Source: a virus. From it: a stretch of 43,204 nt of DNA. The stretch spans positions 1 through 43,204 of IMG/VR virus record IMGVR_UViG_3300031963_000308, one strand, 5' to 3'. The notes beneath the pieces were generated by a model that saw nothing but the letters and a program-made list of their open reading frames with translations, searched no databases and was not told the DNA's origin. The first letter of the stretch is position 1, and each line of letters starts with the position of its first letter. The position numbers and the translations under genes were made by a program. Below are positions 18,220 through 33,706 of the stretch, one piece after another.

Positions 18220-18537
18220 GTGGATCATTGCATTGATGGCGCAAACCTCGTACCAAAACGCAGTGCAAAACACAAATTCAGACAAGAAATCTTTGGGGCT
18301 TGGCAACATCAATGCGCCTATTGCGGCGAGTCAGCAGACACGTTGGATCACGTCAGACCGCGCCATAAAGGTGGCGCTACGGTAACTGCAAACTTGGTGC
18401 CAGCGTGCCGTAATTGCAACCGCCGCAAAGGCAGTGAAGAATGGCAGCAGTGGTTCAATCGGCAGGATTCTTATCTGCTTGATCGTGAACTTGCGGTGTT
18501 GCGATGGATTCAAGCATCTGATGATAGAACACTTTAG
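18220..18537 (+). CDS. HNH endonuclease
   Basis: A 105-aa protein with a compact HNH/zinc centre: CAYC (Cys32, Cys35), LDHVRP (Asp43, His44), and NLVPACRNCNRRKGS (Asn58, Cys63, Cys66). GTG at 18220 directly follows the previous stop and is the likely start. HNH proteins of this size act in phage DNA packaging (next to terminase) or as free-standing homing nucleases; here it is not near the terminase. It ends overlapping the opposite-strand sigma factor gene by 4 bases, so no room is left for a terminator. Confidence 0.88.
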   Translation: MDHCIDGANLVPKRSAKHKFRQEIFGAWQHQCAYCGESADTLDHVRPRHKGGATVTANLVPACRNCNRRKGSEEWQQWFNRQDSYLLDRELAVLRWIQASDDRTL

Positions 18538-19487
18538 CCTGCCATTCCTGCTGGTGATCCTTGCACATCCCCGCTAGGCATACCCTCCACATATTCCCTA
18601 TCTTTTGTATCGTTGGCGCCAAGTGGGGTGCCTGCCAGCGGATTGCCTATCAGCATACGAAGCCGATTGATGCCGCGCAGCTGCAGTTGGCACATATGGC
18701 CGCGTGAGATGCCCAAACGCTTTTCAAGGTCATTCCACGGCACAGGGTTGCGGCTGTTGCGTGCATAGATAATTTCACGAGTGCGTTCGTCTAGGTATTG
18801 TTCGCAATGATCACGGAGCACCTCAAGCTGCCAGTCGTATTCAACGTCATATTGCTTCTCGTCTGCGATTAGGTCCAAGATGTTAGATGTATCTTCTTGC
18901 GTTGGCTTGTCGAGGCTGGTGACACGGTACGCTTGACGCAATGTGTCAGATATGATTTCTGGCGTCACATCAAGCATTGCAGCAAGCTCTGACATGCTTG
19001 CGGTGCGGCCATGATCCTGCGCAAATAGCTGTGCAGTCTTGTTGATCTTGACCAGCATCTCGTGAATACCAAGCGGCAGCCTGATGATCGGGTCATATTG
19101 CACCAATGCACGGCCAATGGCTTGACGAATCCACCAATAGGCGTAGGTGCTGAACTTGTAGCCGCGGCTGTAATCAAACAGTTCTACAGCACGCGCAAGG
19201 CCGATGTTGCCTTCTTGGATCAGATCAAGCATCTCCAGTGTCTGATTGTTGCGCTTGCTGTACTTGCGGGCTACATGCACCACCAACTGCAGGTTTGACT
19301 GCATAAACCGCTGGCGGGCGCGTTCACCACTGCGCAACTCACGGCGTTCTTGAGTGGTTAAGGGTCTATCAAGATCCTTAAGTTCTTTCCACCTTGCGAC
19401 GCGTCGACCCAGTTGTATCTCTTGTTGCGGTGTTAAAAGTGGATAGCGAGCGATACTGTTTAAGTAGTCGCCAATGGCATCAGACAT
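18534..19487 (-). CDS. RpoD-type sigma factor (cyanobacterial group-2-like)
   Basis: A 317-aa sigma-70 factor with full domains. Region 1.2 is at 5-32 (YLNSIARYPLLTPQQEIQLG). Region 2 is at about 55-130: DLIQEGNIGLARAVELFDY for core binding and -10 recognition, then FSTYAYWWIRQAIGRAL. Region 3 is at about 135-195. Region 4 is at about 220-280 with a helix-turn-helix (WNDLEKRLGISRGHMCQLQ). It lacks the long region 1.1 of housekeeping factors. The arrangement resembles cyanobacterial group-2 sigma factors. It likely binds host RNA polymerase and directs it to phage promoters. It is the last gene of the leftward block and has a C-terminal extension (about 290-317) that is Gly/Pro-rich. Confidence 0.93.
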   Translation of the reverse strand: MSDAIGDYLNSIARYPLLTPQQEIQLGRRVARWKELKDLDRPLTTQERRELRSGERARQRFMQSNLQLVVHVARKYSKRNNQTLEMLDLIQEGNIGLARAVELFDYSRGYKFSTYAYWWIRQAIGRALVQYDPIIRLPLGIHEMLVKINKTAQLFAQDHGRTASMSELAAMLDVTPEIISDTLRQAYRVTSLDKPTQEDTSNILDLIADEKQYDVEYDWQLEVLRDHCEQYLDERTREIIYARNSRNPVPWNDLEKRLGISRGHMCQLQLRGINRLRMLIGNPLAGTPLGANDTKDREYVEGMPSGDVQGSPAGMAG

Positions 19488-24866: not shown

Positions 24867-26225
24867 CTAAATGCCGTGTCGCTTAGCCAACCTAGCCTGA
24901 TAAACCCGCTCAGCCCATCCTCGCTTGTAGCCGCGTTGCTGCGCTAGCTCGCGGAGGGCTTCAAGGTCACGGGCACTGCCTTGCTCACGCTTGCGCTCAC
25001 GTGCAGCCATCTCCACCAACTCACCATCCACCTGCTGCAGCTCACGCCGTTCCTGTGGTGCAAACACATGACCGCATTCGCGGCATACCTGCACGGTGCT
25101 GGCGCTAGTGGCGAAGCACTGCGGGCAGACCTTCACGCTGGGTGCTTGCTCGCGGTCCCTGCGGGCGACCCCATCTAGCGACCAGTCGCGCGGCTCTAGA
25201 TGGTGGCCAAGTCGTAACGTGTTGCCCACGTGGTCGAGGACCACGGCACGCTTACTCGGTTGCGGGCGCAGGCAACGGCCAATCATCTGCAGGTGCAATG
25301 CCACGCTTGCGGTGGGGCGCAGCAGGATGCAGCCACCAACGCTTGGCACGTCTACGCCTTCACCGATTAGCGCGCAACTGGTGAGCACCTTGAGCCTCCC
25401 GGCGCCAAGGTCGCTGAGCAACTGCCGGCGCTGCGCAGTATCCATGCTGCCGTCAATACTTGCAGCGGCGATGCCTGCTGACTGAAAAAGTGCAGCCACT
25501 GCCTCTGCATGTGCCACGGAGCAGCAGAACGCAATCGCCGTTTGCCCTGGCAGATGCTTGCGGTAATGCCCCAAGCAGTCGCCCATGATGGTGCCGACGC
25601 GCTGCTCAGCCTCCTTGGGGTCGAAGTCACCCATGCGCTTGCGCAGGCCGGTTGAGTCAAAGCCAGGCGGTGCCAGCACCTTGGCAGCAGCAAGGAAGCC
25701 TTGATCGGTCAGTTGCTGCGCGGTTGGACCTTCCACCATGCACTGATAGTGCTCGCCTAGGCCGCGGCCATCACTGCGGATCGGTGTGGCGGTGACGCCG
25801 AGCAGTTTGGCTTGGGAGAAGTGCTCGATGACCTTGGCCCATGTGCCGGCGCTGGTGTGGTGTGCCTCATCCACCACCAAGAGCTGGAAGAAATCCCTCG
25901 GCAGCAGATGCAACCTGCGGGCAAGGGTCTGCACGCTGGCAACCTGCACCGCATGGCTTAGGTCCATGCTCTTGCCGGCGCTGATGCGGCCATGCGGTAC
26001 ACCCATGCTGCGTAAGCTGCGGCTTGCTTGGTCAAGTAGTTCCGCTCTGTGAACGAGAATTAAAACCCTGTTGCCTTTGATGCTTGCCTGTTGGGCGATG
26101 TAGCTGAAAATGTAAGTCTTGCCGCCGCCAGTGCTGAGCACAGCAAGAACTGACTTGCGGCCTAACTGATACTGGCCGCGTATCTCGTTGACTAGTTGTT
26201 GCTGATATGGGCGAAGAGCAATCAT
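24867..26225 (-). CDS. DEAH-box superfamily 2 helicase
   Basis: A 452-aa superfamily 2 helicase (start ATG 26225, which overlaps the upstream HNH stop as ATGA). Motif I is STGGGKT (31-37), motif II VVDEAH (117-122), motif III GVTATPIR (143-150) and motif VI QMIGRCLRP (313-321). A zinc finger of four cysteines (367, 370, 381, 384) follows the helicase core, and a basic helical tail ends the protein. The type resembles ERCC3/restriction-subunit-like unwinding or remodelling helicases used in phage replication. Its first 34 codons are duplicated upstream at 26772-26875, on the other side of the HNH gene. Confidence 0.93.
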   Translation of the reverse strand: MIALRPYQQQLVNEIRGQYQLGRKSVLAVLSTGGGKTYIFSYIAQQASIKGNRVLILVHRAELLDQASRSLRSMGVPHGRISAGKSMDLSHAVQVASVQTLARRLHLLPRDFFQLLVVDEAHHTSAGTWAKVIEHFSQAKLLGVTATPIRSDGRGLGEHYQCMVEGPTAQQLTDQGFLAAAKVLAPPGFDSTGLRKRMGDFDPKEAEQRVGTIMGDCLGHYRKHLPGQTAIAFCCSVAHAEAVAALFQSAGIAAASIDGSMDTAQRRQLLSDLGAGRLKVLTSCALIGEGVDVPSVGGCILLRPTASVALHLQMIGRCLRPQPSKRAVVLDHVGNTLRLGHHLEPRDWSLDGVARRDREQAPSVKVCPQCFATSASTVQVCRECGHVFAPQERRELQQVDGELVEMAARERKREQGSARDLEALRELAQQRGYKRGWAERVYQARLAKRHGI

Positions 26226-26737
26226 TGCTTGGCCCACTTGCGAATTGGTGTTGATGCAATGCGCTCCATAGACCAACCAGCGCGGCGTCTGCCGTAAAAG
26301 CGCTGAACGCTAATACCAAACTCTGCCGCCCAATCTTTGGGATACATAGCGCGCCCATTCCACTCAATAGGTTCGGCATCAGGCGCTAAATGCTCTCTAA
26401 TGTGATAGTCTTGCGTCATCACCATCAGGTTTGACGGATCATTGTTGTGCTTGTCGCCATCAATGTGATGGACAATCTCGCCGCGCTCAAGCGGTCGGCC
26501 AATCATCTGCTCAGCCACAACGCGATGCTCGTGGCGACCATGCCGTTTGCGGTAAGTCGTTTTCTTGACGGAATCAAACCGAGCAAGTTGAGCTGCGCGG
26601 TTGCTGGCCCTTCGTTGCTGTTCTGGCGTGATGTAATGCGGATCGCCGTAGCGACGCACTCGTTGGGCGTGCATTCCGCACATGCCATGGCTGTCCACTG
26701 GTTTGTCGCAGCCTTCGATTTTGCAGGTGCCGGCCAT
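26222..26737 (-). CDS. HNH homing endonuclease inserted at helicase
   Basis: A 171-aa HNH nuclease (ATG 26737). A zinc motif lies at the start (Cys5, Cys10, Cys20, His23). The nuclease core is HRVVAEQMIGRPL, then VHHIDGDKHNN (His90, His91, Asp93) and PSNLMVMTQDYH. The C-terminus is a DNA-binding part (WAAEFGISVQRFYGRRRAGW). It lies between a broken helicase N-terminus and the intact helicase, and the upstream fragment is fused in frame to it, so a 217-aa fusion from ATG 26875 is also possible. Homing HNH genes insert next to conserved codons of essential genes, and Walker A is such a site. Confidence 0.85.
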   Translation of the reverse strand: MAGTCKIEGCDKPVDSHGMCGMHAQRVRRYGDPHYITPEQQRRASNRAAQLARFDSVKKTTYRKRHGRHEHRVVAEQMIGRPLERGEIVHHIDGDKHNNDPSNLMVMTQDYHIREHLAPDAEPIEWNGRAMYPKDWAAEFGISVQRFYGRRRAGWSMERIASTPIRKWAKQ

Positions 26738-26771
26738 CGTCCAACAGTTGCGGGCAACTAAATCATAAGGG

Positions 26772-26875
26772 TTGCCGCCGCCGGTGGGCAGCACCGCTAG
26801 GACCGACTTATGCCCTAGCTGGTACTGCAGGCGGATATCGGTGATCAGTTGCTGCTGATAGGGGCGGAGCTGCAT
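26772..26875 (-). pseudogene. Truncated helicase N-terminus (disrupted copy)
   Basis: From ATG 26875 the codons read MQLRPYQQQLITDIRLQ and on to LAVLPTGGG, the same as the first 34 residues of the helicase at 26225 with 7 differences. Nucleotide identity is about 74%, with most changes at third positions. After GGCGGCGGCAA the similarity stops and the HNH-side sequence begins. The ATG is coupled to the methyltransferase-fusion stop (TGATG), so this copy sits at the original operon position. It is a non-functional helicase piece or the leader of the HNH fusion. Confidence 0.8.
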
Positions 26876-29133
26876 CACACCAGCACCCCTTGACGGTTGC
26901 TGGCAACCTCAGTCAGGTTCTTCACTGCACAGTTGAAATACGACGGCTTCAGCTCAAACCCGACAAACTGGCGCCCGGCTTGGATGCTGCAGTAGCCCTC
27001 GCTGCCGATACCAGCGAATGGGCTGAGCACCACGTCGCGGGGGTTGCTCCATAGCTGCAGGCCGCGGCGGATCACCTCCAGCTGCAGCGGGCAGATGTGG
27101 CGCTCATCCTCATTGGCGCGTGCGCTGCGGTATTGGAGCGTGTCCGATGGGTTGATGTCCATCCATACGGGGCTGGCGTACCGCTGCCAGATGTTGATCG
27201 AGTCCTTGATCGGATCCTTGGTCTTAGCTGGTGGATTCTCACCGGCAAACTCCGTGAACGGGCCAGCCACTGGCTCTGGATTGTCGCCCAGCTTGCGCAC
27301 GGTCACCAGGTAGTCAGGGATGCCCTGGCGGCTGAGCGCAGAGTCCTTGCGCACTTGCTTGTGAAGCAACCCGATCGCTTTGGTGCGTTGCATGGCGGTC
27401 ACCGGATCCTTCCAGATGCACACCTCGCTATGGAACACGAAACCAGCAGCCTGGAAGATGCGCAGCATGTCGCCGCGAAAGTCCTTCACGCCGATGAAAC
27501 CATCGCGCTCCTTGCTGCTGGGCAGATTCATGCAATGGAAGCTGATCAACCTGCCTGGCATCATCACGCGGTGCAACTCGCTGGCAAGGAAGCCGAAGTG
27601 ATCAAAGAACTCCTGTTCAGTGCGGCTGTTGCCCATGTCTCGGTCGCTGTTGCTGTAGGTGTAAAGCGACGCAAATGGCGGGCTGAAGATGCTGTAGTGG
27701 ATGGAGTTGTCATCTAGCTGCTTGATGCTCTCCACGCAGTCACCCATGTACATGTCCCAGCCGTCGCCGGACTTGTGCTCAGTGACATGCGGCGCCACTT
27801 GGCGCTGGATCTTTTTGAGTTGTTCCATGGTTTGTTGCTTCATGATTTCAACCATTGATTGAGCCATCTGGATGCTGTCCGCTTCCTTGCGGCGGATGTT
27901 GTCGATCACGCGGCCTTCTGCCACGTCGTAGATGATGTGCGCATTAACCGGTTGCTCTTGCCCGAAGCGCCAGCAGCGGCGGATGGCTTGATAGAACGCC
28001 TCATAGCTGTGTGACAGGCCGACGAATGCGACGTTGTGGCACCGCTGGAAATTAAGCCCAAAGCCAAAGATGCTGGGCTTGCTGACTAGGACGCGGATCT
28101 TGCCATCTTGAAAGTCGATAGCAGCCTGCCGCTTGTGGTCGTCGGTGTCAGATCCTGACACATCAACCGCGCCATCAATCGCAGCAGTCAGCGCTTTACT
28201 CTCATCATTGAGATCACACCACACCAGCCATTGCTCGGTGTTGCTGTTGGCAAGCTTGGCAGCAGCGGCCACGCGAAGGGTGAGCGATGCCTTGCGCACC
28301 TTGCGTTGGTCGTTGAGCGTACGGGCCTCCATGGCAAACAGCGCCATCTGGCCGTCATCACCTGCTGTTGCCTCGCGCGGCGTCTCCACCGTGCAGTCTT
28401 GGATCCGCAGCGCTGGCAGCACGAAGCTGCCGTCCTCATAGCCAAGGTCTGATGGCTTGCGGATAGTGACTGCCCAACTGCACACCCACTCCCAGAACTT
28501 GTCCCGCGCGTGACCTTTGAGCCGCCACTTGGCAGTGTCGCCGCCGTCATGCACGAAGAACATGGCCAGCATCTCGGTGCGGGTCATGACGCCGATGAAC
28601 TCAGCATGGTTGCCAAGCTCCATGTGGTCGTTCGGTGCTGGTGTTGCCGAGCAGGCCAGTCGGTATGGCGTCAGCGCGAACGATTCAATGATCTGGTTGC
28701 GGATCTTGCCGGTGTACGCCTTGAGGATGCTTGATTCATCTAGGACCACGCCTTGGAAGCTGCCGGGATTGAAGTGGCTCAGCTTCTCGTAGTTGGTCAC
28801 CGTGATGCCGGGCTGCACGTCGGCTTGCGTGGCAGCAAATGCGCATGGGATGCCGAACTTGGCACCCTCGCGCACGGTTTGATGCGCCACGGCAAGCGGC
28901 GCCAGCACCAGCACGTTGCCGCCGGTCTCTTGGTGCACCTGATGCGCCCACTCGAGCTGCATGGCGGTTTTGCCCATGCCGCAGTCGGCCCAGATGCAGA
29001 ACTTGCCGACACGGCAAGCCATGGTCACGATGTCCCGCTGAAACGGGAACAACGGCGCGGTGAACTGCTGCGGGTCAAAGCCGGCAACAGGTGCTGCAGT
29101 GGATTTGGAGGCTAGGAAGTCTTGGTAGGTCAT
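26875..29133 (-). CDS. SNF2-type helicase-DNA methyltransferase fusion
   Basis: A 752-aa fusion. Residues about 25-440 form a superfamily 2/SNF2-like helicase: CGMGKT (51-56), LDES (131-134), SATP (162-165) and RRCWRFGQEQPV (385-396). Residues about 455-745 form a class-beta DNA methyltransferase: SPPF catalytic motif at 484-487 and the AdoMet-binding motif SPFAGIGSEG at 704-713, in the permuted beta-class order. SPPF fits N4-cytosine or N6-adenine modification. It may methylate phage DNA against host restriction while the helicase part moves along it. No partner restriction nuclease is seen. Confidence 0.92.
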   Translation of the reverse strand: MTYQDFLASKSTAAPVAGFDPQQFTAPLFPFQRDIVTMACRVGKFCIWADCGMGKTAMQLEWAHQVHQETGGNVLVLAPLAVAHQTVREGAKFGIPCAFAATQADVQPGITVTNYEKLSHFNPGSFQGVVLDESSILKAYTGKIRNQIIESFALTPYRLACSATPAPNDHMELGNHAEFIGVMTRTEMLAMFFVHDGGDTAKWRLKGHARDKFWEWVCSWAVTIRKPSDLGYEDGSFVLPALRIQDCTVETPREATAGDDGQMALFAMEARTLNDQRKVRKASLTLRVAAAAKLANSNTEQWLVWCDLNDESKALTAAIDGAVDVSGSDTDDHKRQAAIDFQDGKIRVLVSKPSIFGFGLNFQRCHNVAFVGLSHSYEAFYQAIRRCWRFGQEQPVNAHIIYDVAEGRVIDNIRRKEADSIQMAQSMVEIMKQQTMEQLKKIQRQVAPHVTEHKSGDGWDMYMGDCVESIKQLDDNSIHYSIFSPPFASLYTYSNSDRDMGNSRTEQEFFDHFGFLASELHRVMMPGRLISFHCMNLPSSKERDGFIGVKDFRGDMLRIFQAAGFVFHSEVCIWKDPVTAMQRTKAIGLLHKQVRKDSALSRQGIPDYLVTVRKLGDNPEPVAGPFTEFAGENPPAKTKDPIKDSINIWQRYASPVWMDINPSDTLQYRSARANEDERHICPLQLEVIRRGLQLWSNPRDVVLSPFAGIGSEGYCSIQAGRQFVGFELKPSYFNCAVKNLTEVASNRQGVLV

Positions 29134-29396: not shown

Positions 29397-29549
29397 GTGG
29401 CATTGTCCCATCCGTTATCGGTTCAGTTCACCCCAGAGCAGATGGCTTGGCTGGATCGTCGGCGCATAGCCGGCATATCCCGCAGCACGGTGCTCAGGCT
29501 GGTGGTTGAGGAGGCAATGCGCCGCGAGCAGGAGCCGCAGCGCAAGTGA
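29397..29549 (+). CDS. Ribbon-helix-helix DNA-binding protein
   Basis: A 50-aa protein from GTG 29397 (no nearer ATG). A beta strand (PLSVQFTPEQMAWL) and two helices (LDRRRIAGISRSTVLRLVVE, EEAMRREQEPQ) match the CopG/Arc ribbon-helix-helix pattern. Dimers of this fold bind short palindromes or repeats. It is the first gene of the rightward block, beside the divergent control region, so autoregulation is likely. Its stop overlaps the start of the primase gene (GTGA). Confidence 0.75.
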   Translation: MALSHPLSVQFTPEQMAWLDRRRIAGISRSTVLRLVVEEAMRREQEPQRK

Positions 29550-31918
29550 AAGAGATCGACTTTTCAGAAGCCCGTCGGTTCATTGCCCTGCTTGGCAAAC
29601 CGGCGGGCACCATCCGCTTGCGTGCTTTTTTGCACCGGCTGCACCCAGAGAAGCCCAACGACAAAGGCCGCAAAGGTGGCGCCAGCAAGCCATTGATCAA
29701 GCAGTGGCAGGCTGAAGGGCGCGGCGTTTATGTGGTCGTCAACGATGGCGGTGACACCAACGCTGAAATCACAGCCTGCCGTGCCTTCTTCGCTGAATGG
29801 GACGATCGCTCGCGCGAGTGGCAACTCACCGCATGGCAAGAGCTAGGGCTGCCGGAGCCTACCTTCCAAATCAATACCGGCGGTAAATCCATCCACAGCT
29901 ATTGGGTGCTAGCAGACCCGATCACACCTGCGCATTGGGAGTTGGTGCAGGGGCGGTTGCTGGATTACTGCGATGCAGACCGCAGCATCAAGAACTCATC
30001 CCGCGTCATGCGGCTACCCGGCAGCTACTACGCCGAAGCTGATGGCAGCCTTGGTGAGATGTGCCGCATGGTCACCAGCGCAGGCCATCGCTACAGCGTT
30101 GCTGATATTGAAGCGGTGCTGCCCAATGAGGTTTACTACCAGCACGAAAAACCCGCGGAGCGTTACATCGAGCCTGCCGAGCGGGGCATCGACGAAATCC
30201 GTGAAGCCCTAGCCGCTATACCGCCTCGCGTACCAGGGTCCGGCACCTATCACATCTACCGCAATATCTTTTGGGGTCTGATTCAAGCTTGCGGTAGCGC
30301 TGATCTAGCCATTGATCTGATGCAACAGCACAGCCCGCAATGGCAAGGGCTGCAGCAGATCGCCGCATCAGGTGGTGATCGCATCAGCGCCGGCACGTTC
30401 TGGTACTGGGCGCGGCATCACGGATGGCGTCCAGCAACGCCTATGCCGCGCTCACGCCAGCAGCCAACTCAGCCTGCTGCTGATGGCGAAGCGGTCAATC
30501 TGCAGCTCTACGACAAGACCGGCACCGAATGGCTGGAGCTTGCCGTAGAGCATGTCTTCTGCCATCCACAGGAGCGTTGGATTTGCGTGGATGGCGTTCT
30601 CCACCTATGGAATGGCACGCACTACCAAGCCAAGCCCGATGAAGAGCTAGCACCCAAGCTTGCAGCGTTTCTATCCATGCTGCACGTCATTAACCAGCAA
30701 GGTGCCACCACTTACCCATGGCGCAGGCCCCGATACGTGGATGAAGCGCTGCAATGGATGCGCCGGCTACTGAAGCCGGTTGAGGTCAACCCAGCTAATG
30801 CCATCAACTGCCGCAATGGCGTCGTGTCGTGGTCATGGTCTGGCCGCAATCTGGATCTGACTTTTGCACCGCATGATCCAGCGGTTGCCTTCACCTACGT
30901 CACTGCCTACGACTATGACCCAGAAGCCAATGCCCAGCACCTATGGCGGCTGCTTGAAGCCGTAGAGCCTGGCGACCGCGACACGCTGCAACGCATCCTC
31001 GGCAGCGGACTTGACCTCATCAAATACCGCGCCACACGTGGCAGACCGCGTGCTGTCCTGATGATCGGTGAGGGCAGCAACGGCAAAGACACCATCCGCA
31101 CGGCACTGCGCGACACCCTCGGCAGTCGTAATTTCACCAGCTGCACGCTAGCCGACTTCCGCCAATACGACCAAGGACGCAAGTTTCCTATTGCGCCATT
31201 GCGTGGTGCATCAGTGAACTGGTCAAGTGAAAACTCGCAGTTTGTCAGTATTGACAACCTGCAATCATTAAAAGCTGCCATTAGCGGCGAGGAGCTGTCA
31301 TATGAGCTGAAGGGCGTACAGGAATCTCAGTTTGTTCCGTCGTCTTTGTTTGTGTTCAACCTCAACAAAGACCCGTCGCTGACTGGTGAGCAGGCTGCCA
31401 TCGAAACGCGGTTTCACGTGTTCAAATTCCGCAAGACCTTCATGGCGACGCCTACAGAACCGAACCACTTACAAGCTGATCCCAAGCTGAAGGATGACCC
31501 TGATTTCATCCAGCAGCAGATATGTCCTGCATTCCTGAATTGGCTGCTGGAAGGTATGTCCCTCAGCATTGCAGATGGCATTGATTACACAACCGGAAGC
31601 CAAGCAATGCAGGACGTACGTAGAGCTAGCTGCCACCTATGGGACTTCTGTGACTCTATCGGACTGACCTACCAAGAAGGCTCTCAGGTATCAACAAAGC
31701 GGGTATGGGATGCGCTGCAAGAGTGGTATCGAGAGGAGGGTTATTTGGACGACAAAGGTAGGTGGTTGATGGATCCGCCAAGTGATCGCACGGTCAAGGC
31801 GCCCAGGCTTCTGGTGCTGGCATTGCGGCAGATCTTCCCAAAACTTGCGTCCGACAGAGGCTCGGGTAAGACCCGTGAGCGTCTCATCTCGGGTCTGAAG
31901 CTGGACTTGTGGTCGTGA
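29546..31918 (+). CDS. Primase-helicase (AEP primase + D5/SF3 helicase)
   Basis: A 790-aa bifunctional replication protein with GTG start. Residues about 60-200 form an archaeo-eukaryotic primase domain: FFAEWDDRS (Glu84, Asp86/87), GGKSIHSYW (His117), and DADRSIKNSSRVMRLPG (143-159). Residues about 320-470 are D5_N-like. Residues about 500-640 form the SF3 helicase: Walker A GEGSNGKDT (508-516) and downstream VNWSSEN. It would unwind and prime phage DNA. It lies just left of the repeat cluster, whose first iteron falls inside its 3' end, so it is the likely initiator. Confidence 0.92.
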   Translation: MKEIDFSEARRFIALLGKPAGTIRLRAFLHRLHPEKPNDKGRKGGASKPLIKQWQAEGRGVYVVVNDGGDTNAEITACRAFFAEWDDRSREWQLTAWQELGLPEPTFQINTGGKSIHSYWVLADPITPAHWELVQGRLLDYCDADRSIKNSSRVMRLPGSYYAEADGSLGEMCRMVTSAGHRYSVADIEAVLPNEVYYQHEKPAERYIEPAERGIDEIREALAAIPPRVPGSGTYHIYRNIFWGLIQACGSADLAIDLMQQHSPQWQGLQQIAASGGDRISAGTFWYWARHHGWRPATPMPRSRQQPTQPAADGEAVNLQLYDKTGTEWLELAVEHVFCHPQERWICVDGVLHLWNGTHYQAKPDEELAPKLAAFLSMLHVINQQGATTYPWRRPRYVDEALQWMRRLLKPVEVNPANAINCRNGVVSWSWSGRNLDLTFAPHDPAVAFTYVTAYDYDPEANAQHLWRLLEAVEPGDRDTLQRILGSGLDLIKYRATRGRPRAVLMIGEGSNGKDTIRTALRDTLGSRNFTSCTLADFRQYDQGRKFPIAPLRGASVNWSSENSQFVSIDNLQSLKAAISGEELSYELKGVQESQFVPSSLFVFNLNKDPSLTGEQAAIETRFHVFKFRKTFMATPTEPNHLQADPKLKDDPDFIQQQICPAFLNWLLEGMSLSIADGIDYTTGSQAMQDVRRASCHLWDFCDSIGLTYQEGSQVSTKRVWDALQEWYREEGYLDDKGRWLMDPPSDRTVKAPRLLVLALRQIFPKLASDRGSGKTRERLISGLKLDLWS

Positions 31919-32205
31919 TGTCGGACGCAACTTGCGTCCGGGTCGGACGCAAATCGGACGCAAATTTCGGACGCAAAAACCCAGTCCCTATCTATCTTTT
32001 CTTCTGTTCGGACGCAAATAGGGGTAAATCAAGTCAAGTACAGAAACAAGAGGCGAAATGTAACGGCGTGAACAAAAACACACATATAGGGGGGGGATAG
32101 GGAAAATCCCGATTTTGCGTCCTCCCTTGGTATGACTGGGTTTTTTGCGTCCGACTTGCGTCCGCTTGCGTCCGAACCCAGTCGTGGACAGGGTTTTTGC
32201 GTCCG
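31845..32205. repeat. Inverted iteron cluster, candidate replication origin
   Basis: The 9-mer TTGCGTCCG occurs eleven times and an 8/9 version once. Plus orientation: 31845, 31932, 32145, 32156, 32166, 32197, and 32115 (TTGCGTCCT). Minus orientation: 31922, 31944, 31955, 31968, 32009. Minus copies cluster on the left and plus copies on the right, in a mirror layout centred near 32060. Adjacent copies are often 10-13 bases apart, about one helix turn. The central 120 bases are A/T-richer, with an eight-G run at 32089-32096. A longer inverted repeat, CGGACGCAAAAACCCAGTC (31968-31986) with its partner at 32134-32153, frames the core. I see no gene from 31919 to 32236. Confidence 0.75.
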
Positions 32206-32236
32206 ACCTACTATTTGCACCATCCACACACCAGAA

Positions 32237-32518
32237 ATGCCTGAAATCAAACTCAATGTCACCAACGCCGACTTGGCGCGACTCAACGCCGAAGCAGCGG
32301 CGCATGGCATCCCACGTGCGCACCTGATTCGGCAGCGTGCTCTAGGCGACGGTGGTGTTGCACGATTGACTACGGCGGCGTACCATGCGCTGGTGGCGGA
32401 CGCCTGCGCATTTATGCGCGGTGACCTCAACCGCCGTCATGTTGAAACTCTCGTCGCATATGTCATCGCTCATTCACATCCCAGCCAAGCAACAACCGGT
32501 GATCAACCGGCTGCATGA
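32237..32518 (+). CDS. Ribbon-helix-helix-like DNA-binding protein
   Basis: A 93-aa protein from ATG 32237 (the longer reading begins inside the repeats and is poor). PEIKLNVTNADLARLNAEAA followed by HGIPRAHLIRQRAL is a ribbon-helix-helix-like start, as in mobilisation and plasmid-control proteins. The C-terminal half is helical (YHALVADACAFMRGDLNRRH). Placed directly after the iterons, it may bind them. It overlaps the next gene by 59 bases. Confidence 0.65.
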   Translation: MPEIKLNVTNADLARLNAEAAAHGIPRAHLIRQRALGDGGVARLTTAAYHALVADACAFMRGDLNRRHVETLVAYVIAHSHPSQATTGDQPAA

Positions 32519-32669
32519 CGTCATGACGCAAGCCGTTGCGTATGCCGCAGCCATTGCCGATAACGCCATTGATGACGGCGTACCGCTACCCATGGATCTC
32601 GTGGATAGCTTCGCCGCTGATTACGAACGCATCATCACCAGCCTCGTCACTGCCGCCACCGTCAAATGA
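32460..32669 (+). CDS. Small helical protein before the clamp gene
   Basis: A 69-aa helical protein from ATG 32460 (VINRLHDVMTQAVAYAAAIA, VDSFAADYERIITSLV). It overlaps the preceding gene by 59 bases in another frame and the clamp gene by 4 bases (ATGA). No family recognised. Confidence 0.58.
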   Translation: MSSLIHIPAKQQPVINRLHDVMTQAVAYAAAIADNAIDDGVPLPMDLVDSFAADYERIITSLVTAATVK

Positions 32670-33706
32670 AAGCCACTACCTGCCAAGCTGATCTCGATCA
32701 CGCGCTCCGCACCATTGCGCCTGCTGTTGGCCATCGCAGCTCACACCCGATCCTTGATTGCTGCCTGATCAATGCCGCTGCTGGCACCCTCACTATCACC
32801 GGCTTCAACCTTGATCTCGGCATCACCGTCACCATTCCTGCTGCAGTGGACACTGATGGCGCCGTAGCGCTGCCGTATCGGCTGCTAGCTGGCCTTGTAA
32901 GCCGCTTTGATGGCGATGAGGCTCTGACCCTCGCAGATGGCGCTCTGACGGCCTCTAGCGGCTCCTACGGGCTTGCAGCGGCGGATGCGGCGGATTACCC
33001 CGCCATGCCGGTTGTAGACGCTGCTACGAGCGATCTGCACCTATCCGCTGGTATCCGCGCTTGCATGGCAGCCGCCAGCACCGATGCCAGCAAGCAGATG
33101 CTCCAAGGCATCCACCTTGGCAGCGGTCACATGGAAGCGACTGACGGGCATCGCCTCATGCGCTACCCGATCGACCTGCCCACTGGCCTCGACGTGGTAT
33201 TACCGGCCAGCACCATGCGCCTGTTGCAGGATCGCGTGGTCACCATCGCCATGGCAGCCGGTCAAGCCGTCATTGATGCCGGCGATGGCATCACCATCTA
33301 CAGCCGCGTGCTAGATGGCACCTACCCAGATGTGGCTAAACTGCTGCCCACTGACTTCACCAGCACCATCACCGCTGATCGTCGCCGCTTGACACGTGCA
33401 CTAGAGCGTGTTGCCGTCATCGCAGATGCGCACAACTCGATCGTCAAGATCGAGGCAGTAGGTGGCACCATCGCCATCACCGCCGAAGCCGATGCCAACA
33501 ACGGCAAAGAGCTGCTCAAGGTAGACGGCACCGCAAAGGGCGCATGGGCGTTTAACGTCCACTACCTGCTAGACGGCATCAAGGCGTTCAAGCCCGCAGA
33601 AGCCATCACCATGCACGCCAATACGGCAACCACACCCGTGGTGCTGACACCTAGCGGCATGGATGGTGTAACGTATCTTGTAATGCCTGTGCAAATTAAG
33701 GGCTAA
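32666..33706 (+). CDS. dnaN: DNA polymerase III sliding clamp (beta subunit)
   Basis: A 346-aa clamp, slightly shorter than bacterial DnaN (about 365-380 aa). All three clamp domains fit: first ALRTIAPAVGHRSSHPILDC with LTITGFNLDLGITV; second LTADRRRLTRALERVAVIAD-type helix; third VVLTPSGMDGVTYLVMPVQI, which is the typical DnaN C-terminus. Dimers encircle DNA and hold the polymerase. No phage DNA polymerase is visible, so it probably recruits host polymerase III. It is the last gene before terminase, beside the candidate origin. Confidence 0.92.
   Translation: MKATTCQADLDHALRTIAPAVGHRSSHPILDCCLINAAAGTLTITGFNLDLGITVTIPAAVDTDGAVALPYRLLAGLVSRFDGDEALTLADGALTASSGSYGLAAADAADYPAMPVVDAATSDLHLSAGIRACMAAASTDASKQMLQGIHLGSGHMEATDGHRLMRYPIDLPTGLDVVLPASTMRLLQDRVVTIAMAAGQAVIDAGDGITIYSRVLDGTYPDVAKLLPTDFTSTITADRRRLTRALERVAVIADAHNSIVKIEAVGGTIAITAEADANNGKELLKVDGTAKGAWAFNVHYLLDGIKAFKPAEAITMHANTATTPVVLTPSGMDGVTYLVMPVQIKG

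Follow-up and report, generated by a model that had tools for sequence, protein, structure and literature searches.

A mirrored iteron cluster at the 3' end of a PrimPol-helicase gene is a probable replication origin in a group of uncultured phages

The window, meaning the whole stretch of DNA that was analyzed, comprises the 43,204 bases of virus record IMGVR_UViG_3300031963_000308. A gene encoding a large primase-helicase, the putative initiator, carries at its 3' end a dense cluster of short repeats, which extends into the adjacent noncoding DNA. A ribbon-helix-helix-like gene, an unknown gene, a beta-clamp gene (32666), and a terminase gene (34030) follow in that order on the 3' side. The features of the locus are as follows.

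29397 to 29549, plus strand: small ribbon-helix-helix-like gene, 50 residues, recognized by sequence pattern; overlaps the start of the initiator gene
29546 to 31918, plus strand: putative initiator gene, 790 amino acids, with a PrimPol (AEP) domain at about residues 1 to 300, a P4/D5-type SF3 helicase, and a C-terminal winged helix
31634 to 31909, plus strand: predicted RFX-type winged-helix DNA-binding domain, codons 697 to 788, from an AF2 model
31845 to 31853, plus strand: iteron 1, inside the coding sequence, codons 767 to 770
31922 to 31930, minus strand: iteron 2, forming a 19-bp palindrome with iteron 3
31932 to 31940, plus strand: iteron 3
31944 to 31952, minus strand: iteron 4
31955 to 31963, minus strand: iteron 5
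31968 to 31976, minus strand: iteron 6, which begins the extended unit CGGACGCAAAAACCCAGTC
32009 to 32017, minus strand: iteron 7, the inner edge of the left array
32018 to 32114, no strand: core and candidate unwinding element, A+T- and purine-rich, with a run of eight G at 32089 to 32096
32115 to 32123, plus strand: iteron 8, the near copy TTGCGTCCT
32145 to 32153, plus strand: iteron 9, which closes an extended unit (reverse complement)
32156 to 32164, plus strand: iteron 10
32166 to 32174, plus strand: iteron 11
32185 to 32214, plus strand: sigma-70-like promoter for the downstream operon, TGGACA-18-TACTAT, a consensus match only
32197 to 32205, plus strand: iteron 12, in the promoter-like spacer; closes the third extended copy (reverse complement)
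32237 to 32518, plus strand: ribbon-helix-helix-like gene; a sub-threshold NikA-like match (E value, 0.0035) was obtained on the longer open reading frame from 32132
32666 to 33706, plus strand: phage sliding clamp (DNA polymerase III beta-like), from profile matches

The iteron, TTGCGTCCG, is present in 11 exact copies in the 43.2-kb record, all of them within 31845 to 32205, and the near copy at 32115 is the twelfth. No other 9-mer in the record reaches 11 copies per 400 bp, and in ten Markov shuffles the best 9-mer had only 2 to 4. The recount agrees with a preliminary description of the window, which had noted eleven perfect copies and one near copy in about 360 bases and had named frequent occurrence of the word elsewhere in the genome as evidence against its reading; the word is absent elsewhere.

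The copies are arranged as two arrays facing away from each other. Seven copies, five of them on the minus strand, lie to the left of the 97-bp core in the orientation + - + - - - -, and five lie to the right, all on the plus strand. Thus, the left copies mostly point left and the right copies all point right, away from the core, as had been described. Measured along one strand, successive minus-strand copies of the left array are 22, 11, 13, and 41 bases apart, and those of the right array are 30, 11, 10, and 31 bases apart; a spacing of 10 to 13 bases in places had been noted earlier. The palindrome made by iterons 2 and 3 comes after the stop codon of the primase-helicase gene. There are three copies of an extended unit, CGGACGCAAAAACCC(A/T)GTC: one at 31968 and two, reversed, at 32134 and 32186 (the third copy spanning 32186 to 32206). 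The 19- to 20-base inverted repeat that had been reported to bracket the core (31968 to 31986 with 32134 to 32153) is real, with a one-base insertion.

The core is A+T rich, as also noticed before together with its eight-G run, with 57% A+T compared to a genome mean of 43%; 1.5% of windows of equal size reach this value. Its purine content (71%) is reached by only 0.03% of windows. The A+T content of the core was also higher than the locus average in the relatives that were measured. A search of Rfam yielded no RNA family.

The adjacent protein, the putative initiator, combines a PrimPol domain with a helicase of the P4/D5 type. The PrimPol half matches the PrimPol of cyanophage S-2L (PDB 6zp9; E value, 2e-32). 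The protein also matches PDB 7ola (E value, 5e-5). The helicase matches the Pfam families D5_N and DUF5906 above their gathering scores, which places it among the SF3 helicases of the P4/D5 family, and matches TIGR01613 (E value, 4e-25) with 88 bits, below the curated cutoff of 108.7. The C-terminal domain gave no Pfam hit above the cutoff. An AF2 model of residues 640 to 790, of moderate confidence (mean pLDDT, 71), predicts that the C-terminal 95 residues form an RFX-type winged helix. In VIA-align comparisons, this model matched RFX5 (Z score, 9.9; 76 residues; root mean square deviation, 1.9), the RFX1 DNA-binding domain (Z score, 9.6; also at 1.9 Å), and African swine fever virus (ASFV) C962R (Z score, 7.5). 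The tail of C962R has been likened to the origin-binding domain of phage P4 and to RFX1 (PMC10516667). The P4 origin-binding domain itself was absent among the fold matches listed, which proves nothing. A full-length model, in which the helicase core was unreliable, was used solely to plan the modeling of the C terminus. The 30 open reading frames scanned included no further polymerase or initiator, although the record may be incomplete.

Iterons beside a primase-helicase gene had been pointed out before. This holds for the array but not for the copy at 31845, which lies inside the 3' coding end of the gene. The codons of this copy, AAA-NTT-GCG-TCC, were kept in all 53 distinct regions compared. 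The 9-mer stays constant although residue 767 may be L, V, or I, and neighboring invariant residues are encoded by two to five different codons. A word that is constant despite an amino acid change, amid such codon variety, is under selection as DNA, and the embedded iteron is therefore constrained at the DNA level.

The host is probably cyanobacterial. Part of a methylase gene matches Synechococcus phage S-CBS3 at the DNA level, and this match, the similarity to S-2L, and a phage-encoded RNA polymerase sigma factor (18534 to 19487, minus strand; phrog_351) suggest a cyanobacterial host, probably Synechococcus-like. The methylase is a fusion of a helicase and an N6/N4 DNA methylase (26875 to 29133, minus strand); the matching part is ∼79% identical in DNA to S-CBS3, the replication module of which differs. 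At 24867 to 26878 (minus strand), an SF2 helicase gene has in front of it an open reading frame in which the N terminus of the helicase is repeated and then runs on into an HNH endonuclease; it looks as though an HNH element had split or duplicated the start of the gene. A search of genome contigs found no relatives of the primase-helicase and so gave no information on a host or prophage setting.

Dozens of distinct contigs with this helicase were found in IMG/VR, and the collection of phage isolates held no helicase relative above 60% identity. Repeats are present at the 3' end of this gene in the relatives, down to ∼60% identity, whose sequence continues far enough beyond it. The mirror orientation is conserved wherever the repeats are not degenerate, as they are in the most diverged group (L147/L148, L155, L161, and L162); among the relatives that were measured, the sole exception is L047, where one match counted on the right side is reversed, and this is a poor copy. 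The preliminary description had proposed searching related phages for the 9-mer and its inverted layout; the cluster and the layout are conserved there, following the primase-helicase gene. Loci that share only the PrimPol half (L078 to L081) have no such array. In L078 (4998 to 8594), the PrimPol-half relative is fused to a different helicase, apparently with an intein. Regions downstream of P4-type primases in phages Attoomi and Ascela contain no comparable array.

When a 20-base double iteron was searched for across the whole viral collection, 37 stretches matched, and those inspected belong to this replicon, with the exception of L231 and L238. These two are near-copies of each other with one TTGCGTCCG pair and without this replicon; with two copies only and no visible reading frame, they were rejected as unrelated.

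The iteron word changes between clades in a concerted manner. Clade-specific words are TTGCGTCCG (followed by A or CC), TTGCCTTCG, TTGCCTCCG, and TTGGGTCCG, and in well-formed arrays nearly every copy carries the word of its clade, all copies having changed together. The words follow the helicase tree, in which TTGCGTCCG has a single origin (support, 98) and the seven iteron labels require six changes, the minimum, compared with an average of 13.3 for shuffled labels. TTGCCTTCG, which two deep clades share, may be the ancestral word. The TTGCC within the TTGCCTTCG iteron (L059/L061 type, e.g., L061 3383 to 3665) is the core of GTTGCC, the half-site of the eukaryotic RFX X-box (PMC2375033). This match beside a predicted RFX-fold binder may be a coincidence.

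Two kinds of protein at the locus could bind the iterons. The region is flanked by small ribbon-helix-helix-like genes, and iteron 12 lies in the spacer of the promoter-like site at 32185 to 32214. The array might therefore be an operator through which one of these proteins (29397 or 32237), or another regulator, controls the clamp and terminase operon, with no function as an origin. We consider this unlikely. Homologues of gene 29397, which gave no Pfam hit above the cutoff, sit upstream of the initiator in most TTGCGTCCG relatives, yet this gene is ∼98% identical in L012 and only 34% identical in L010, L011, and L013, with the same 11 iterons throughout. The downstream gene was not found in L025, L026, L057, L060, L075, or the L061 group, all of which keep the array. 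Thus, no ribbon-helix-helix gene accompanies every array, 32237 being absent and 29397 swapped or absent in places. Because these genes are swapped or lost while the repeats are unchanged, they are not the main binders, which weakens the operator array that had been raised as the alternative to an origin. Furthermore, 12 sites on both sides of the core are many for one promoter. An additional, secondary operator role is plausible, given the iteron in the promoter-like spacer, and gene 29397 is a possible copy-number or operon repressor.

The L061 group narrows the choice of binder. Its members share with the window the initiator (61% identity), the SF2 helicase, an exonuclease, and a VRR-NUC-like gene, whereas neither ribbon-helix-helix gene nor the clamp, terminase, or portal of the window was seen in the flanks examined; the mirrored array is kept. 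Because only replication and recombination genes are shared in the flanks examined, the initiator is the best candidate for the binder, with the reservation that other replication genes nearby also track the array in part.

Residues of the initiator that separate the TTGCGTCCG class from the rest are concentrated in the predicted DNA-contacting elements, with 6 of 39 columns in the predicted recognition helix and wing compared with 7 of 420. The enrichment persists when the iteron-coded column 768 is left out (5 of 38; P = 0.0016) and when column 766 is also removed (4 of 37; P = 0.008). Groups with equal iterons showed no such enrichment, apart from a weak B2-B3 signal. Since TTGCGTCCG arose once, the enrichment rests on a single evolutionary event, and as evidence that the initiator binds the iterons this comparison of sequences is only supportive. 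Two candidates for specificity residues were set aside: an Arg in the helix at 717 to 731, which varies within the TTGCGTCCG class, and column 768, the codon of which is the iteron itself.

It could also be argued that the region is an origin in which a stem-loop or cruciform formed by the mirrored arrays is the recognized element and the repeats are a by-product, as proposed for pRN1 and phage BIP-1. A stem-loop element has been proposed for AEP-SF3-winged-helix proteins (PMC4234260). The region folds far above shuffled sequences (z scores, −8.0 and −8.6), and the spacers pair beyond the iterons in most relatives. However, mirrored iterons necessarily pair, so most of the folding signal is automatic. 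There was no pairing excess in L155, and by inspection the AAACCC extensions on the left and right are frequently unlike each other in a single genome, which means that strict pairing is not maintained. These two observations suggest that the stem-loop is probably not the conserved element, and the embedded iteron is conserved as sequence. We give this explanation slightly less credit than the operator array. Short-repeat arrays and ribbon-helix-helix proteins are typical of some partition sites, and terminase genes lie ∼1.5 to 2 kb downstream, but a partition (ParR/parC-like) or packaging (cos/pac) site instead of an origin is highly improbable, as the array follows the primase-helicase, no ParA, ParM, or TubZ was present among the 30 open reading frames scanned, and the window's terminase was not seen in the L061 group flanks examined.

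The cluster is probably the replication origin of the phage, an iteron origin of the P4/SaPI type, with the adjacent PrimPol-helicase as its own initiator acting through the C-terminal winged helix. The restriction of the 9-mer to the cluster, the conservation of the mirrored layout, and its position after the primase-helicase all support, at the level of sequence, the candidate origin of the preliminary description. The GC-skew check suggested there gave no switch at the array; the extremes of cumulative skew were at ∼15.7 and 24.5 kb rather than 32 kb, and skew is uninformative in this genome, where changes in gene strand dominate.

Our inference is that the iterons are bound by the C-terminal domain, that a pair of helicases is loaded head to head, and that this is where replication begins. 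The RFX-type winged helix of the initiator would bind the 9-bp iterons in both arrays, and the left and right arrays would seed two oppositely oriented helicase assemblies. The A+T- and purine-rich core would be opened by these assemblies, and priming, perhaps also extension, would then be the work of the fused PrimPol with the phage clamp encoded just downstream. A stronger version, for which we hold out a limited chance, is that one polypeptide recognizes the origin, unwinds it head to head, primes, and polymerizes with the clamp, while the DNA that encodes its wing is one of its own binding sites. In that case the bases in which the protein evolves would also be those of the site, and the series of clade words would be a natural record of an initiator and a dozen sites switching specificity together.

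The locus offers a likely origin for widespread uncultured phages that have no isolate of this replicon, and a compact, testable pair of initiator and origin. With more than 50 distinct related origins and several coordinated iteron changes, coevolution of initiator and site is directly testable, and the specificity comparison singles out individual residues of the predicted recognition helix and wing.

Among isolated phages, cyanophage S-2L has the PrimPol nearest to the PrimPol half of the phage protein (40% identity). The C-terminal half of the S-2L protein did not align, and S-2L is without TTGCGTCCG-type iterons, having a GTGCC cluster in the equivalent gap. This 360-bp gap after the PrimPol gene (L088 8167 to 8526) contains eight GTGCC/GGCAC words (mean, 1.3 per window) and a purine-rich stretch with GTAACAGGGTGA, similar to GTAACGGCGTGA in the core of the window. 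On this basis it is a candidate for the S-2L origin. In mycobacteriophage TM4 (L261 3917 to 4180), ∼10 TGACGG words, facing both ways, are spread over the 3' end of gp70, the primase gene, and gp71; five of them read TGACGGA, compared with 1.0 expected in 6.3 kb. This cultured phage may thus have an origin of the same kind.

The crenarchaeal plasmid pRN1 (orf56/orf904) resembles the phage locus in having a small DNA-binding regulator, a PrimPol-SF3-winged-helix protein, and a region downstream, and its essential region lies downstream of the PrimPol-SF3-winged-helix gene (PMC4234260). The pRN1 element is a stem-loop of poorly conserved sequence, whereas the phage array is dominated by iterons highly conserved in sequence. 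In satellite phage P4, as putatively here, primase, helicase, and origin binder are combined in one protein (gp-alpha, acting with ori/crr). The primase of P4 is of another type than that of this phage, and the layout of its repeats differs. The phage helicase matches the P4-family model TIGR01613 at the subcutoff score given above, and the RFX-type winged helix reported for the P4 origin-binding domain (PMC10516667) is predicted in the phage protein.

Close known parallels are staphylococcal pathogenicity island (SaPI) Rep with its ori and SCCmec Cch2, in which, as here, an SF3-type initiator helicase is combined with short repeats directly downstream of its gene. In both, the C-terminal domain recognizes repeats directly downstream of the protein's own gene, and SaPI5 Rep also has a primase domain (PMC7581432). 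The PDB relative 7ola of the phage protein is annotated as a DNA primase. Host, PrimPol type, and iteron sequence differ from the SaPI and Cch2 systems; the phage arrays are mirrored over a purine-rich core with one iteron inside the gene, and binding would be by analogy. Iteron origins that a P4/SaPI-type initiator reads with its C-terminal winged helix are already known; the present candidate would add one in PrimPol phages that have no isolate of this replicon, with mirrored arrays and an iteron inside the gene.
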